From the NCBI RefSeq assembly GCF_011762095.1, contig NZ_JAASQO010000001.1, positions 1 to 64,000 on the forward strand: a stretch of 64,000 nucleotides of DNA, read 5' to 3'. The translations under genes were made by a program, and so were the position numbers. Under the pieces are notes generated by a model. It worked only from the letters and a program-made list of their open reading frames with translations, was not told where the DNA came from and did not search any database. Origin of the DNA: Parvibaculum indicum. Its GTDB lineage: Bacteria; Pseudomonadota; Alphaproteobacteria; Parvibaculales; Parvibaculaceae. Each line of letters begins with the position of its first letter. Within the stretch, counting starts at the first letter, position 1. This document shows, in pieces, positions 51,901 to 60,386 of this stretch.

Positions 51901-52932
51901 ATGAGCAATGCCGGCAAAGGCACGAAAATCCGTCTCGCCCCGGAGGACGAATATCCGCATACACCGGATACCGCCGCAAATTACAATGAAAGCATGTATT
52001 TCAATGTGTTCGATCCGGCGCGGCGGATCGGCGGCTGGTTTCGGCTCGGCAACCGCCCGAACGAACGCTATGCCGAGATGACCATATGCCTCTACCTGCC
52101 CGGCGGGCGCGTGGCCTTCATGTACAAAAAGCCCGAAATCACCTCCAATGACGAGATGAACGCTGGCGGGCTGCGTATCGATGTGGTGGAGCCGTTCAAG
52201 CACCTGAAGCTCAACTACACCGAGAAGGCGCTTCTTCTCGACCGGCCCGGCGAGATGGCGGATCCCAAAAAGGCCTTCACTGAAAACCCGACCCTGCCCT
52301 GCACCGTGTCCCTCGATTTCAGGGGCGTTTCGCCCATGTTCGGCGGCGAGACCGTGAAGGAGGACGGATCGTCTCTCGCCCTCGACCCGGAAAAATCCTT
52401 CGCCAAAGCTCACTACGAACAGCACATGGCGGTCGAGGGGAGATTCACCCTGGGCGACGAGAGCTTCGAGATTTCCGGCTTCGGGCTTCGTGACAAGAGC
52501 TGGGGGCCCCGCTACTGGCAGGCGATCCATTGGTATCGCTGGCTGCCGATGAATTTCGGCCCCGATTTCGCGATGATGATTTCCATCGTCACCAATGAAG
52601 AAGGCCAGGAACGTCAGGGCGGGATGGTCCTGAAGGACGGAAAATACGATCTCATCCGGAAATGCAGCATCGACAGCGAATGGGACGACAACTGGTACCA
52701 GACCTCGCTGAAGGCCCATGTCGAGACGGAGTCAGGCGCGCAATACGATGTCGAGGGCGATGTGATCTCGCTCATCCCGCTGCGCAATCGGCGCAAGGCA
52801 CCTGACGGCACGGACCTCAACACCCGCATTACCGAAGGCATGACCGAATATCGCTGCAACGGGATGACCGGTCTGGGCATGTCGGAATATCTCGACCAGA
52901 TCGTCGACGGCAAACCGGTAAGCGTGGCCTGA
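51901..52932 (+). CDS. Uncharacterised protein (DUF7064-like)
   Basis: A 343-residue soluble protein without signal peptide, rich in beta-strand-like segments and aromatic residues. The motif G-L-R-D-K-S-W-G-P-R-Y-W near 195 followed by HWYRWLPMNFGPDFAMMIS recalls the R-D-x-S-W-G box of DUF7064/7065 and hydroxyneurosporene-synthase-like proteins. I cannot assign a function with confidence. GGGAGG precedes the ATG. It is followed two bases later by a kinase-like gene and then DUF6285, so it belongs to that operon. Confidence 0.75.
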   Translation: MSNAGKGTKIRLAPEDEYPHTPDTAANYNESMYFNVFDPARRIGGWFRLGNRPNERYAEMTICLYLPGGRVAFMYKKPEITSNDEMNAGGLRIDVVEPFKHLKLNYTEKALLLDRPGEMADPKKAFTENPTLPCTVSLDFRGVSPMFGGETVKEDGSSLALDPEKSFAKAHYEQHMAVEGRFTLGDESFEISGFGLRDKSWGPRYWQAIHWYRWLPMNFGPDFAMMISIVTNEEGQERQGGMVLKDGKYDLIRKCSIDSEWDDNWYQTSLKAHVETESGAQYDVEGDVISLIPLRNRRKAPDGTDLNTRITEGMTEYRCNGMTGLGMSEYLDQIVDGKPVSVA

Positions 52933-52933
52933 G

Positions 52934-53941
52934 ATGAGCGATAGGAACAACGACTTCACCGCTTCGCTCTCCGAGGCGGTCCGGCGCCATATCGAGGGCG
53001 CAACGGGCGTCGACGGGCTCCAGCGGCTATCGGGCGGCGCGAGCCAGGAAACCTGGGCCTTCGATGCAACGACCTCGAAGGGGACGCCTCTCCCCCTGAT
53101 CCTGCGGCGCGCGCCGGGTGGAACGCGGGCGGAAAAGACGACGGCTGTGGCGCTTGAGACGGAAGCCGTACTGATCGAACTGGCGGAAAAAGCCGGTGTG
53201 CCCGTTCCCACGGTACGCCACGTCCTGACGCCGGAAGACGGCGTTGGTCAAGGCTTCATCATGAACCGGCTGACGGGCGAGACGATCGCCCGCAAGATCC
53301 TCCGGGACGAGGAATATGCCGAGGCGCGGCCCAAACTCGCCCGGCAATGCGGCGAGATCCTTGCCCGCCTGCACAGCATCGACAAGGCGAAACTGCCGGC
53401 GCTGCGCGTTGCGGCCGCCGGAGAGGAAATCAGGCAGTACCACGCCACCCTGCGCGAGCACGGTCACCCTCACCCCGTTTTCGAATTGGCCTTCCGCTGG
53501 CTCGAAGACAATCTTCCCGCCGGGGACACCGAACTTACACTCGTCCATGGCGATTTCCGGAACGGCAATCTGATGATCGGACCGGATGGCGTGCGCGGGG
53601 TCCTCGATTGGGAACTCGCCCATATCGGAGACCCGATGGAAGATCTCGGCTGGATCTGCGTGAACTCCTGGCGCTTCGGCAATATCGACAAGCCTGTCGG
53701 CGGCTTCGGTACGCGAGAAGATATGTTCGCGGGTTACGAGGCAGTGAGCGGCCAGAGCGTCGACCCCGAACGGGTGAAGTTCTGGGAGGTACTGGGCACC
53801 CTCAAATGGGGCATCATGTGCACAAGTATGGTGACGGCCTTCAAAAGCGGTCTCGACCCCTCCGTGGAACGCGCCACCATCGGCCGTCGCTCGTCTGAAA
53901 CCGAGATCGACCTGCTGCGCCTGCTGGCGCCGCGAAGCTGA
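52934..53941 (+). CDS. APH-family phosphotransferase (LvaA-like)
   Basis: A 335-residue aminoglycoside-phosphotransferase-fold kinase. Motifs are HGDFRNGNLMIGPDG (catalytic H-G-D-x-x-x-x-N) near 200, then VLDWELAHIGDPMEDLGW with the metal-binding Asp. RLSGGASQETWAF near 30 is the nucleotide-binding loop. It lies between the DUF7064-like gene and a DUF6285 gene. The kinase plus small partner resembles LvaAB of Pseudomonas, which phosphorylates a 4-hydroxyacyl-CoA; that comparison is inference. No drug-resistance function is implied. Confidence 0.85.
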   Translation: MSDRNNDFTASLSEAVRRHIEGATGVDGLQRLSGGASQETWAFDATTSKGTPLPLILRRAPGGTRAEKTTAVALETEAVLIELAEKAGVPVPTVRHVLTPEDGVGQGFIMNRLTGETIARKILRDEEYAEARPKLARQCGEILARLHSIDKAKLPALRVAAAGEEIRQYHATLREHGHPHPVFELAFRWLEDNLPAGDTELTLVHGDFRNGNLMIGPDGVRGVLDWELAHIGDPMEDLGWICVNSWRFGNIDKPVGGFGTREDMFAGYEAVSGQSVDPERVKFWEVLGTLKWGIMCTSMVTAFKSGLDPSVERATIGRRSSETEIDLLRLLAPRS

Positions 53942-53951
53942 GGAGAACGCC

Positions 53952-54338
53952 ATGCAGGACCAACCCACATCGGCTGAACTCGTCGGCGCGGTTGCCGACT
54001 TCATTCGCACCCACGCCATGCCCCAGCTGGAAGGCCATGCCGCGTTCCATGCCCGCGTGGCGGCCAATGCTCTGGATATCGTGAAACGCGAACTAGAGAT
54101 CGCGCCGGAGGCGAATGCCGGAGAACATGATCGCCTGAAGGCATTGCTGGGCGCGGACGGAAGCCTGGACGATCTGAACCGCGAACTTTGCACCCGTATC
54201 CAGGCCGGAGAGCTGACGCTCGACACGGAGGGGCTCAAGGATCACCTCTGGGCTACGACACTCGCCAAGCTTGCCGTCGATCAGCCGAAATATTCCGGCT
54301 ACCGGCGGGCGCTTGAAGAGGAAAATGCAGAAAAATAG
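53952..54338 (+). CDS. DUF6285 protein, likely partner of the upstream kinase
   Basis: A 128-residue, mostly helical protein. TSAELVGAVADFIRTHAMPQLEGHAAFHARVAANALDIVKRELE and LWATTLAKLAVDQPKY are the family core. The start is 10 bases after the kinase stop with GGAG upstream. Small proteins of this kind occur immediately after APH-type kinases in acyl-CoA degradation operons and are needed for kinase activity in the LvaAB case, as far as I know. That relation here is inference. Confidence 0.8.
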   Translation: MQDQPTSAELVGAVADFIRTHAMPQLEGHAAFHARVAANALDIVKRELEIAPEANAGEHDRLKALLGADGSLDDLNRELCTRIQAGELTLDTEGLKDHLWATTLAKLAVDQPKYSGYRRALEEENAEK

Positions 54339-57476: not shown

Positions 57477-57589
57477 GCTCCCTCTCGTGCAGTCTTGGCT
57501 GGACCACAAGAAACAGGGAGTTTCGGGCACTTATCTGGAGAAAATGAGCCTTGTTTTGGGCAATAAGACGACCACTCACACACAATGCA

Positions 57590-57617
57590 AAAAAGGCCGG
57601 TCAAGACCGGCCTTTTT
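57590..57617 (-). terminator. Rho-independent terminator after the thiolase operon
   Basis: A GGCCGGTC/GACCGGCC stem with A-rich and T-rich flanks on both sides, giving a T-tract whichever strand is read. The minus-strand thiolase gene ends 22 bases before it. No plus-strand gene ends here, so its main use is on the minus strand. Confidence 0.85.
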
Positions 57618-57638
57618 CAACATCCATGCCCGGGACGT

Positions 57639-58841
57639 TTAAGCCCCTTCGGCACCGATGATCGTTACCGAGCAGACATTCTGCGACGGCGCACCGCCGA
57701 GATTGTGGGTGAGGCCGATCTTGGGATTGGGAAGCTGGCGTTCCCCTGCCCGGCCTTGAAGCTGCAGATACATCTCATAGGCCATGCGCAAGCCGGAGGC
57801 CCCGATCGGATGCCCGAAGCACTTCAGGCCGCCATCGATCTGGCAAGGCACCTTGCCGTCACTGTCATAAAAGCCGTCCATCACATCCTTCACCGCGCCG
57901 CCTTCCGGTGAGATGAAGAGGTCCTCCATGGTCACAAGCTCGGTGATGGAGAAGCAGTCATGCACTTCCATCATGCTGACCTGCTCGCGCGGATTGTCGA
58001 TACCGCCTTCCTTGTAGGCTTTCTTGGCGGCGATGCGCGCGGTGTGGAAGTAGCTGCCGTCCCAGCTATTGTGCTGTGATTCAAGGCCGTTGGAGACGGA
58101 AAGCTGCATGGCCTTCACCGTCACGACATCCTTCTTGCCCATCGCCTTGGCGATTTCGGGCGTCGTGACGATAGCCGCCGCCGCGCCATCCGAGACGCCG
58201 CAGCAATCGAAGAGCCCGAGCGGTTCTGCGATCATCGGCGCGTTCATCACCTGCTCTTCGCTGACTTCATTGCGCAGATGTGCCTTCGGATTCTTGGCAC
58301 CATTGGCATGGCTCTTCACCGAAACATGCGCAATGGCGCGCTTCAGGTCTTCCTTGGCCACGCCATGCTTGGCGCGATAGGCCGAGGCGAGCTGCGCGAA
58401 ATTGCCGGGCGCGGACCCGCTCGGCGACCATTGTGGATTGAGCGTCCCCATATTGCCGACCGGCAGACCGCCATATCCTGTATCTTTCAGCTTCTCGACG
58501 CCGACCGCGAGTGCGATGTCGCAAGCGCCCGAGGCCACCGCATAGACCGCGCCGCGCAGCGCTTCCGATCCGGAGGCACAGAAGTTTTCGACGCGTGTCA
58601 CCGCGATATTGGGCAGACGCAGCGCCAGGGAGAGCGGCGTACCGCCCTTGCCCGTACCGATGTCATCGATATGCGTCGAAAACCACGCCGCATCGATCTG
58701 TGTCGGTTCGATTCCGGCATCCTGCATTGCCTCGAGATAGGCCTCGACCATCAACTCTTCGGGACCGCTGTCCCAGCGCTCGCCGAATTTCGAGCAGCCC
58801 ATGCCGACGATCGCAACCTTGTCCTTGATACCTGTAGCCAT
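57639..58841 (-). CDS. Thiolase, SCP-x type acetyl-CoA acetyltransferase
   Basis: A 400-residue thiolase-superfamily enzyme. The nucleophile Cys is C88 in VENFCASGSEALRGAV. A His-containing block is in MMEVHDCFSITELVTMED near 295, GGLKCFGHPIGASGLRMAYEM supplies another conserved region near 345, and the second Cys is near 390 in APSQNVCSVTIIG. These residues suggest a working thiolase or aldolase of the SCP-x/Ltp branch that handles branched or steroid-like acyl-CoAs. GGGAGGAAATC lies before the ATG. It follows the OB-fold fusion gene by 45 bases in the same operon. Confidence 0.9.
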   Translation of the reverse strand: MATGIKDKVAIVGMGCSKFGERWDSGPEELMVEAYLEAMQDAGIEPTQIDAAWFSTHIDDIGTGKGGTPLSLALRLPNIAVTRVENFCASGSEALRGAVYAVASGACDIALAVGVEKLKDTGYGGLPVGNMGTLNPQWSPSGSAPGNFAQLASAYRAKHGVAKEDLKRAIAHVSVKSHANGAKNPKAHLRNEVSEEQVMNAPMIAEPLGLFDCCGVSDGAAAAIVTTPEIAKAMGKKDVVTVKAMQLSVSNGLESQHNSWDGSYFHTARIAAKKAYKEGGIDNPREQVSMMEVHDCFSITELVTMEDLFISPEGGAVKDVMDGFYDSDGKVPCQIDGGLKCFGHPIGASGLRMAYEMYLQLQGRAGERQLPNPKIGLTHNLGGAPSQNVCSVTIIGAEGA

Positions 58842-58886
58842 GATTTCCTCCCGTTCGGGAATTTCGTGTTGGTTTATCGTGGTTGA

Positions 58887-60386
58887 TTATTCGGCAGCCT
58901 GCGCGCCCGCGACGCTGGCCGGCATGGGAACGGCTTTCCAGAAATAGCGTTTAAAACCACGCTTTTCGTCGACTTCCTTCACACGGAAGACGAGCCGCAC
59001 TTCCATGCCCGATTCCACATTGCCGACTTCGACATCGGTAAAATCCATCATGATGCGGCCGCCTTCGTCGAACACCACCATGCCGTAATGATTGGGCGGG
59101 TTCATGGAGAAGGACAGATAGTCGGCCGACCAGCTCAGAATTTTGGCCTTCTTTTCTGCAAACTTGTAGGGCTCCTGCGTATCGACCGTGTGCTTGTTCG
59201 GATTGACGGAGATGCGCGAGCGGGGAAACTGGATAACGCCCGTTTCCGTGCAACGGCCGCCGACGAGCCCCATGATCATGTCCTCGTTGCGGTAGAGCGT
59301 GGTGAGCGCGGTCTTCTTGTCCTGCTCGGCGCGCATACCCCTTTCCCATTCAACGAGACCGTTGAAGGTCAGGAACTTCATGTAATTGGTCTCTTCGACC
59401 CGCTCGGCGAGCGAACCGGCGATGCCGCGCTTGCCGGACATCGTGGAAAGCTTGTCCGTCACCTCGAAGATGAGCGCATCGCAGCCGCCGCCGAATTGCG
59501 CCACCAGCACCTTGTCGCCGGGCTTGGCCTCGGTCTGAAGCGTGTTGATGAGCATGACCAGCGCATGCGCGGTGCCCGTCTCGCCGCAATTGGCGGCCAG
59601 CGTATCGCGCGCGATCTCGGGGTTGAGGCCGCATTTCTTCGCGAGGCCCGTGATGAACTTCATGCCGAAGGTGGACGGAATGATGAAATGCGCGATGTCC
59701 TCGCCCTTGAGGCCGGCATCGTCCAGCGCCGACTTCACAGCGCGCGGAACGATCTTGGAAAAACCCTCATCTCGGATCCAGCGCTCTTCCCAGTTGTAGT
59801 CGAACTCTTCCGTATCGCCCCGGAAATGATCGACGAAATCCACGGTCAGGCTCGCCCCGCCGAGATATTTGGCGATCACATTGTCCGTGCCGACGGAAAG
59901 CGCCGCCGCGCCGTCGCCGAAATCGAGTTCCTGAGCAGTCACCGCTTTGGTCTTGCGATGATCGGAAGCGAGCACCAGCCCGTTTTTCGTCTCTCCCGAT
60001 TTGGCGGCGGCAAGCGCCTGCATCAGTGCGCTCGTGCCCGCGCGCTGCGTGGACGATACATCGATCGCCCGCACACGATCTTCCAGTGTCAGCGCCGCTG
60101 AAATGATGCCGCTGTTGAGACGGTCCGCGAACGGCATGGTGGTCGAACCGAAATAGACCGCATCCACATGGCTGCGATCGTCATCCGGGCCGAGCAGGTC
60201 GCGCGCGGCCTCAACGGCCATCGTCACGGAATCCTCGTCCCAATTGGCCATGGAGCGTTCGCCCTTGGCTTTGCCCATGAAATTCGGCGCTACCCACGCA
60301 TTGGCCTGGGCGATGGCCTTTCTTTGCAGCCGGAGGCGGGGGATATATCCGCCAAAGCCCGTCAAACCTACTGTTTGCTCGGCCAT
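58887..60386 (-). CDS. HMG-CoA-synthase-like protein fused to an OB-fold (DUF35) domain
   Basis: A 499-residue protein. Residues about 1–350 have the ketoacyl synthase III/HMG-CoA synthase fold (GLTGFGGYIPRLRL, VYFGSTTMPFADRL, FGDGAAALSVG, FGGGCDALIFEV). Residues about 370–490 are a DUF35-type OB-fold. The usual active site looks altered: the position of the catalytic Cys reads S-S-T-Q-R-A-G-T-S-A-L (Q114), the Glu region is GSTTMP, and the His region is IIPSTFG. In DUF35 the zinc-ribbon cysteine pairs are reduced to one Cys (GGRCTETG). ATG 60386 has GGGAGG upstream. It is co-transcribed with the downstream thiolase. Confidence 0.88.
   Translation of the reverse strand: MAEQTVGLTGFGGYIPRLRLQRKAIAQANAWVAPNFMGKAKGERSMANWDEDSVTMAVEAARDLLGPDDDRSHVDAVYFGSTTMPFADRLNSGIISAALTLEDRVRAIDVSSTQRAGTSALMQALAAAKSGETKNGLVLASDHRKTKAVTAQELDFGDGAAALSVGTDNVIAKYLGGASLTVDFVDHFRGDTEEFDYNWEERWIRDEGFSKIVPRAVKSALDDAGLKGEDIAHFIIPSTFGMKFITGLAKKCGLNPEIARDTLAANCGETGTAHALVMLINTLQTEAKPGDKVLVAQFGGGCDALIFEVTDKLSTMSGKRGIAGSLAERVEETNYMKFLTFNGLVEWERGMRAEQDKKTALTTLYRNEDMIMGLVGGRCTETGVIQFPRSRISVNPNKHTVDTQEPYKFAEKKAKILSWSADYLSFSMNPPNHYGMVVFDEGGRIMMDFTDVEVGNVESGMEVRLVFRVKEVDEKRGFKRYFWKAVPMPASVAGAQAAE

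Follow-up and report, generated by a model that had tools for sequence, protein, structure and literature searches.

An HMG-CoA synthase-like protein without the catalytic residues, paired with an SCP-2-type thiolase in Parvibaculum indicum: a probable two-component thiolase

Introduction

What does a protein with the fold of 3-hydroxy-3-methylglutaryl-coenzyme A (HMG-CoA) synthase (HMGCS) do when the catalytic residues of that enzyme are gone, and what is its relation to the thiolase that is encoded next to it? The question is raised by two genes of the alphaproteobacterium Parvibaculum indicum. They are located in a stretch of 64 000 nucleotides that forms the start of contig 1 (NZ_JAASQO010000001.1) of a genome of 4.02 Mb in 37 contigs (GCF_011762095.1); this whole stretch is referred to below as the window. 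The two genes are co-directional and are separated by a gap of 45 bp, with the thiolase gene downstream:

58887-60386, minus strand: HMGCS-like protein, 499 amino acids, assigned from the open reading frame, domain matches, alignment and predicted fold
Within it, residues ∼4-346: HMGCS/KASIII-like domain; residues ∼372-488: fused OB-fold (ChsH2_C/DUF35) domain
57639-58841, minus strand: thiolase of the sterol carrier protein 2 (SCP-2) type (NCBIfam PRK06157), 400 amino acids, with Cys88, the HDCF motif (294-297) and the GHP motif (343-345) intact

Among the records of the genome collection, those of Parvibaculum are nearest, with up to 97% identity across the 499-residue protein. The evidence assembled here leads us to regard the pair as a likely two-component β-ketoacyl-CoA thiolase of CoA-dependent degradation, in which the HMGCS–OB protein is a non-catalytic subunit.

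Loss of the catalytic residues

In an alignment of the 499-residue protein with 6esq, an archaeal HMGCS, Thr82, Gln114, Pro237 and Glu269 stand where the synthase has its catalytic Glu, Cys, His and Asn, respectively. At the same four sites PhlA (5m3k), which belongs to the DAPG acyltransferase, has Cys, Gly, Gln and Asp. As a positive control, the FabH-like protein of the same genome, the gene for which adjoins a gene that by eye looks like plsX, was aligned with the window protein. In it the catalytic residues do come out, with Cys at position 114, His at 237 and Asn at 269, so the alignment method is able to see them.

The loss extends to the relatives of the protein, 220 of which were found and 80 kept for counts. 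Cys is present at position 114 in 0/80 (Gln in 65, Leu in 13, Met in one and Ile in one), Thr82 is kept in 79 and Pro237 in all 80. A wider set of 34 rows consists of the window protein, eight of the 80 relatives, five further genome rows and 20 plasmid rows; here neither Cys at position 114 nor Glu at position 82 occurs in any row, Gln114 is found in 19 rows and His at position 237 in two. A divergent subfamily without the zinc ligands (L090, L105 and L109) carries Arg at the Cys position, and in L090 and L109 Pro237 is replaced by His. The original prediction, made from the letters of this DNA, had read the catalytic Cys, Glu and His of the 499-residue protein as lost, and these counts bear it out: the loss is real and family-wide, not local.

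Cys267, which lies near the Asn site, was considered as a displaced nucleophile and rejected, as it is Cys in just 14 of the 45 rows of our alignment of the HMGCS-like protein (A1). Recent decay of one gene is also rejected, as the residue loss is family-wide and the ratio of nonsynonymous to synonymous substitution rates (dN/dS) is low. In five comparisons with relatives it amounts to 0.03–0.13 for the HMGCS-like gene and to 0.006–0.07 for the thiolase gene, ratios that are rough since dS approaches or exceeds 1 in most comparisons. These values point to purifying selection on the HMGCS-like gene.

Domains and predicted fold

Matches to Pfam above the cut-off are ACP_syn_III_C and OB_ChsH2_C in the 499-residue protein and the thiolase domains in the 400-residue protein. 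The OB-fold domain (PF01796, DUF35/ChsH2) scores 37.1 bits against a cut-off of 27.1, and zf-ChsH2 reaches 12.1 bits against a cut-off of 23.2, too low for a zinc ribbon to be called. The 499-residue protein stays under the cut-offs of all ten NCBIfam models listed for it. Three of these are HMG-CoA synthases: NF003274 (190.4 bits, cut-off 244), TIGR00748 (136.3 bits, cut-off 353.35) and TIGR01835 (50.7 bits, cut-off 360.35).

The AlphaFold model of the 499-residue protein has a predicted local distance difference test score (pLDDT) of 81.8 and a predicted template-modelling score (pTM) of 0.85. Its best fold matches are the archaeal HMGCS (6esq_I, Z = 42.7), PhlA (9skh_A, Z = 42.4; 5mg5_A, Z = 41.6) and MucA (9vbo_A, Z = 40.2), and MvaS follows with Z = 36.7. 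Subunits of multi-component complexes (the HMGCS of 6esq, PhlA, the PhlA of CsATase and MucA) thus outrank the stand-alone HMG-CoA synthases, and the HMGCS/KASIII fold that had been proposed earlier is recovered with Z scores of 40–43. The fold match speaks for the N-terminal domain; the assignment of the OB domain comes from Pfam and, weakly, from the DUF35 chain 6esq_E (match at 1.7e-4). Families absent from the list of fold matches carry no weight in this comparison.

The thiolase partner

The 400-residue protein matches PRK06157, an SCP-2-type thiolase model, with 718.6 bits against a cut-off of 403. Cys88, the motif His294-Asp-Cys-Phe297 and the GHP motif at 343–345, which includes His344, do not vary among the 21 close rows, window included, in line with the earlier statement that an SCP-x-type thiolase here keeps its cysteines. 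In a wide thiolase set the nucleophilic Cys is present in 30/30 rows and HDCF together with GHP in 28/30. The two exceptions, L104 and L111, are thiolases from three-gene sets of the Firmicutes Priestia and Lactiplantibacillus that are located beside nonribosomal peptide synthetase (NRPS) genes. Two more thiolases were located, those of L105 and L108, which lie outside the 30-row alignment. The BbsB model NF053628 is not reached (159.7 bits, cut-off 750), and the BbsB chain matches the thiolase at 6.3e-45.

Pairing of the two genes in other genomes

Neighbours in the loci of the relatives were called by BLAST with the window genes. A thiolase gene follows downstream in 73 of the 80 loci, in 58 of them within 200 bp and in 15 after 0.4–3.6 kb. 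Six of the 15 gapped loci were looked at (L026, L039, L041, L061, L074 and L075), and the intervening open reading frames, which differ between most of them, were set aside. Among the seven loci in which the thiolase is missing, five end at most 1.5 kb from the HMGCS-like gene.

The pairing recurs on plasmids. From 39 matching records 20 were fetched, which hold 17 fused genes and three unfused three-gene sets. All 17 fused genes adjoin a thiolase gene (in two pieces in L108, and on an unannotated record in L105). As a raw count, 16 of the 16 annotated fused loci have acyl-CoA dehydrogenase, hydratase, short-chain dehydrogenase/reductase, CoA-ligase or CoA-transferase genes within 6–12 kb on each side. 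Ring-hydroxylating dioxygenases are found near three plasmid loci (Variovorax SRS16, Rhodococcus qingshengii and Niveispirillum). The plasmid operons differ from one another and do not point to one substrate.

Several of the plasmid records show features of their own. On the Haladaptatus plasmid (L102, 4823-7410) a fused HMGCS–OB gene without the catalytic residues adjoins a thiolase gene near UbiD decarboxylases and a benzoate-CoA ligase; it sits on a long branch of the tree. The plasmids of Priestia (L104, 3992-6770) and Lactiplantibacillus (L111, 3001-5780) carry unfused sets of an HMGCS-like protein, a thiolase and a zinc-ribbon protein beside NRPS genes, resembling PhlABC and MucABC. In Paraburkholderia sp. 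PGU19 (L108, 9448-10634) the unannotated thiolase matches in two overlapping pieces and may be frameshifted, and the HMGCS-like gene is open.

When genomes were drawn phylum-wide, the HMGCS-like gene (E < 1e-20) was present in seven of 299, the window's own included; in a class-wide draw the thiolase (E < 1e-100) was present in ten of 58, again with the own genome counted.

A model of the pair

A dead HMGCS-like partner of a thiolase-fold enzyme is already known from PhlABC, a precedent that the original prediction missed. In PMC2954200, from 2010, PhlABC is described as one active and one inactive member of the thiolase superfamily together with an OB-fold protein. PhlA has Gly115 and Cys83 where HMGCS has Cys and Glu, only the residues of PhlC act, and the assembly is Phl(A2C2)2B4 with a continuous cavity, as given in PMC6392133. 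For CsATase, C88S in PhlC abolishes the formylation activity (PMC12955522). The window protein looks like a fusion of PhlA and PhlB. Given this likeness and the PhlABC precedent, the two proteins are in our view components of a single thiolase, one of them a non-catalytic subunit.

In this model, which borrows its mechanism from known thiolases, the SCP-2-type thiolase would do the chemistry. Cys88 would attack the β-keto group, with His344 and Cys296 serving as acid/base; the short acyl-CoA would leave and a second CoA would thiolyse the acyl-enzyme. The 499-residue protein would be the equivalent of a fused PhlA and PhlB, its own OB (DUF35) domain taking the place of a separate bridging subunit. 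The dead subunit most likely would hold thiolase dimers in a PhlABC-like assembly, for which a 4 + 4 stoichiometry is predicted, and would line a shared channel for CoA and substrate. The starting points of the model are observations: the residue loss, the predicted fold, the intact residues of the thiolase, the gene pairing, the catabolic neighbourhoods elsewhere and purifying selection. From these we infer formation of a complex, its stoichiometry, a reaction in the direction of thiolysis and the part that the dead domain plays.

The original prediction had offered a scaffold or a new CoA-dependent lyase or aldolase. The first of these gains from the family-wide loss, purifying selection, the pairing with the thiolase and the example of PhlA; the second is disfavoured by the nucleophilic Cys88 and by HDCF, a motif of SCP-2 thiolases.

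Several observations weigh against the model. It is a single chain that was predicted, and its OB part is poor, with residues 348–374 and 422–432 at pLDDT below 50. In two of the 80 loci, L072 and L077, the 8 kb beyond the HMGCS-like gene contain no such thiolase, and the gaps of 0.4–3.6 kb in another 15 loosen the pairing. In its own lineage, in the window, the pair is not inside a β-oxidation operon, and the plasmid figure of 16/16 is a raw count. The rough dN/dS ratios belong here as well. Residues between Asp183 and Glu207 are kept among close relatives more strictly than a mere scaffold needs. Finally, the pair may carry out condensation or acyl transfer instead of thiolysis. The conservation of Asp183–Glu207, the two loci without a thiolase, the isolated position of the pair and the single-chain modelling allow for some part of the HMGCS-like domain in ligand binding or in the chemistry.

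Comparison with known systems

Like PhlABC of Pseudomonas protegens and CsATase, the pair combines an HMGCS-fold subunit without Cys and Glu, an OB/DUF35 part and a thiolase-fold catalytic subunit with Cys88. Unlike in PhlABC, where PhlA and PhlB are separate chains, the A-like and B-like parts are joined here in one chain of 499 residues. The pair further departs from PhlABC-type sets in its HDCF motif, which is absent from the Firmicute relatives L104 and L111, and in the catabolic contexts of its plasmid relatives. The reaction of PhlABC-type enzymes is an acyl transfer to a phenol that does not depend on CoA. The likeness to MucABC of Streptococcus macacae is one of fold and concerns MucA. 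The archaeal 6esq complex provides the best fold match and has the same three modules, but its HMGCS retains Glu82, Cys114 and a His, where the window protein has Thr, Gln and Pro. Benzoylsuccinyl-CoA thiolase BbsAB is likewise a degradative thiolase with a DUF35 partner, and its complex is not known to include an HMGCS-like subunit.

In our literature search we recognized no description of a fused PhlA–PhlB-like subunit together with a degradative HDCF thiolase in catabolic gene groups, which is not proof of absence. This combination of fused subunit and HDCF-type thiolase occurs in Proteobacteria, Actinobacteria and one haloarchaeon. Where such proteins carry annotations as domain proteins of 'hydroxymethylglutaryl-CoA synthase' or '3-oxoacyl-ACP synthase III', they are probably thiolase subunits, so that pathway reconstructions in which they figure as enzymes may be mistaken. 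The family may mark a common thiolase step of several poorly known degradation pathways. As a natural single-chain analogue of PhlA–PhlB it lets one ask why a dead fold stays under selection across phyla, be it for assembly, CoA binding or channelling.

Alternative explanations

The HMGCS-like domain might itself still be catalytic and act on a CoA thioester before or after the thiolase does. Its active site could then be a new one, formed by the W-E-E-R-W-x-R-D-E stretch, or Gln114 could make it a decarboxylase of the KSQ type. A Cys-to-Gln change makes ketosynthases decarboxylases; Gln is the residue at the Cys position in 65 of the 80 relatives and 19 of the 34 wide-set rows, and structures of FabH C112Q are among the fold matches of the 499-residue model. 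The stretch concerned is

59763-59840, minus strand: conserved stretch Asp183-Gly208 (DFVDHFR...FDYNWEERWIRDEG), from alignment counts

and Asp183, His187, Trp199, Glu200, Glu201, Arg202, Trp203, Arg205, Asp206 and Glu207 are invariant in 45 of 45 rows of alignment A1; in the model, the block means of pLDDT for residues 181–200 are 67 and 71. We nevertheless consider a catalytic HMGCS-like domain to be unlikely. Gln is replaced by Leu in 13/80 relatives and by Ala, Pro, His or Thr in the actinobacterial and haloarchaeal rows, the His has become Pro and the Asn mostly Glu or Asp. In 31 more diverse fused rows only Asp186, Glu200, Glu201 and Arg202 of the stretch reach 90%, and Arg202 is an Arg in 6esq and PhlA too. 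A related idea is that the dead domain has been re-purposed as a second CoA-thioester site that would bind or transform an acyl-CoA, for example by decarboxylating or gating it. Gln114 and the D-F-V-D-H-F-R ... W-E-E-R-W-x-R-D-E-G stretch would then act, passing the acyl-CoA via the fused channel to Cys88 of the thiolase. If true, the pair would represent a new class among degradative thiolases, one with channelling, that has members in Proteobacteria, Actinobacteria and at least one haloarchaeon. Since most of the Asp183–Glu207 residues vary across the wider fused set, we give this version a slim chance.

The pair might instead be synthetic, a C-acyltransferase or a Claisen condensing enzyme like PhlABC or MucABC; PhlA and MucA, which are parts of multi-component acyltransferases, do rank high in the fold and sequence comparisons. 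Such a synthetic role is improbable given that the thiolase has the HDCF motif that is missing from the two Firmicute rows beside NRPS genes (a comparison that does not include P. protegens PhlC), that the plasmid contexts look degradative and that PhlA groups in the tree with Firmicute rows, apart from the fused family. A retro-aldolase pair is suggested by the steroid side-chain aldolases Ltp2–ChsH2 and Sal–Shy, which likewise consist of a thiolase fold and the DUF35 domain of a partner enzyme, and by MaoC hydratases in several plasmid operons. The motifs of the aldolases Ltp2 and Sal, however, are YDHF and YDCY (PMC12329534). With HDCF instead and with the nucleophilic Cys88 kept, the window thiolase is set apart from these enzymes and their retro-aldol chemistry; the aldolase was rejected on the HDCF motif, and we hold it to be very unlikely. 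Hardly credible at all is an active HMG-CoA synthase with shifted catalytic residues. The HMGCS fold and the NCBIfam HMGCS matches (190 bits) would favour it, but the three HMGCS cut-offs are missed, Cys and Glu are at their sites in 0/34 rows, Cys267 is Cys in 14/45 and HMG-CoA reductase had no match in the searched genome. It was rejected on these scores, site residues and the missing reductase match. A search of the genome's own contigs found IspH, and with no match to HMG-CoA reductase there is no reason to expect a mevalonate pathway supplied with HMG-CoA. That the protein is not an HMG-CoA synthase had been anticipated, and the alignment with the archaeal HMGCS upholds this, revealing no shifted catalytic set. 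A two-component thiolase with a non-catalytic HMGCS–OB subunit remains our preferred reading.

Zinc ribbon and phylogeny

The OB domain of the window protein contains the remains of a zinc-binding motif:

59178-59267, minus strand: residues 374-403 of the OB domain, a degenerate zinc ribbon with only Cys379 left

Cys379 is the one cysteine kept out of the four of the C-x2-C...C-x4-C pattern, as expected from the earlier remark that the zinc CxxC pairs have been lost; all four are kept in 13 of the 45 rows of alignment A1, which makes the loss lineage-specific. Because the zinc-keeping relatives also lack the catalytic Cys, the zinc loss looks later than, and separate from, that of the Cys. In the tree the window protein falls into a zinc-less group of six rows (support 100/99), together with one Alphaproteobacterium, Caulobacter, the PS1 clade, Rhodobiaceae and Variovorax. 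L093 and another zinc-less group, made up of L090, L105 and L109 (support 100/100), branch off in other places. With midpoint rooting and long branches for the haloarchaeal rows, the order of these events can be suggested and not read off directly.

Neighbouring genes

Further along the window, on the opposite strand, two genes recur in the loci of the relatives:

52934-53941, plus strand: kinase with the aminoglycoside phosphotransferase (APH) fold, from structural-database matches; a syntenic neighbour, without implied membership in a complex
53952-54338, plus strand: DUF6285 protein beside the kinase, a syntenic neighbour

Both are present in 44 of the 52 loci that have at least 6 kb after the thiolase, loci that are mostly close relatives and not independent. 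The best match of the kinase is 3dxp (4.1e-19), named as a putative acyl-CoA dehydrogenase, followed by the aminoglycoside phosphotransferase 9o56 and by ACAD11 (8v3v, 1.4e-10). The kinase and the DUF6285 protein are possibly an acyl-CoA kinase pair. As a guess, we take DUF6285 to be the family of LvaB, one half of the bacterial LvaA/LvaB pair; a literature search on the name DUF6285 returned no paper. Conversion of 4-hydroxyvaleryl-CoA to 4-phosphovaleryl-CoA is reported for LvaA/LvaB in PMC6692424, and ACAD10/11 phosphorylate 4-hydroxyacyl-CoAs according to PMC11342911. The conserved ACAD11-type kinase and DUF6285 protein thus weakly hint at 4-hydroxyacyl-CoA substrates.

A hairpin follows the thiolase gene:

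57588-57619, minus strand: terminator-like hairpin of 14 pairs 3′ of the thiolase gene, a consensus match only

The scan of the window gave three such sites against a mean of 3.0 for shuffled sequence, so there is no excess over the shuffles. Three further DUF35 (PF01796) proteins are encoded elsewhere in the same genome (C2 and C3). In the region of the kinase the window also encodes a cytochrome P450 (49543-50961, minus strand) and a DUF7064/DUF7065 protein (51901-52932, plus strand) with a match to the Rv3169 family below the cut-off; in Parvibaculum loci the DUF7064 protein is again found close to the two genes.

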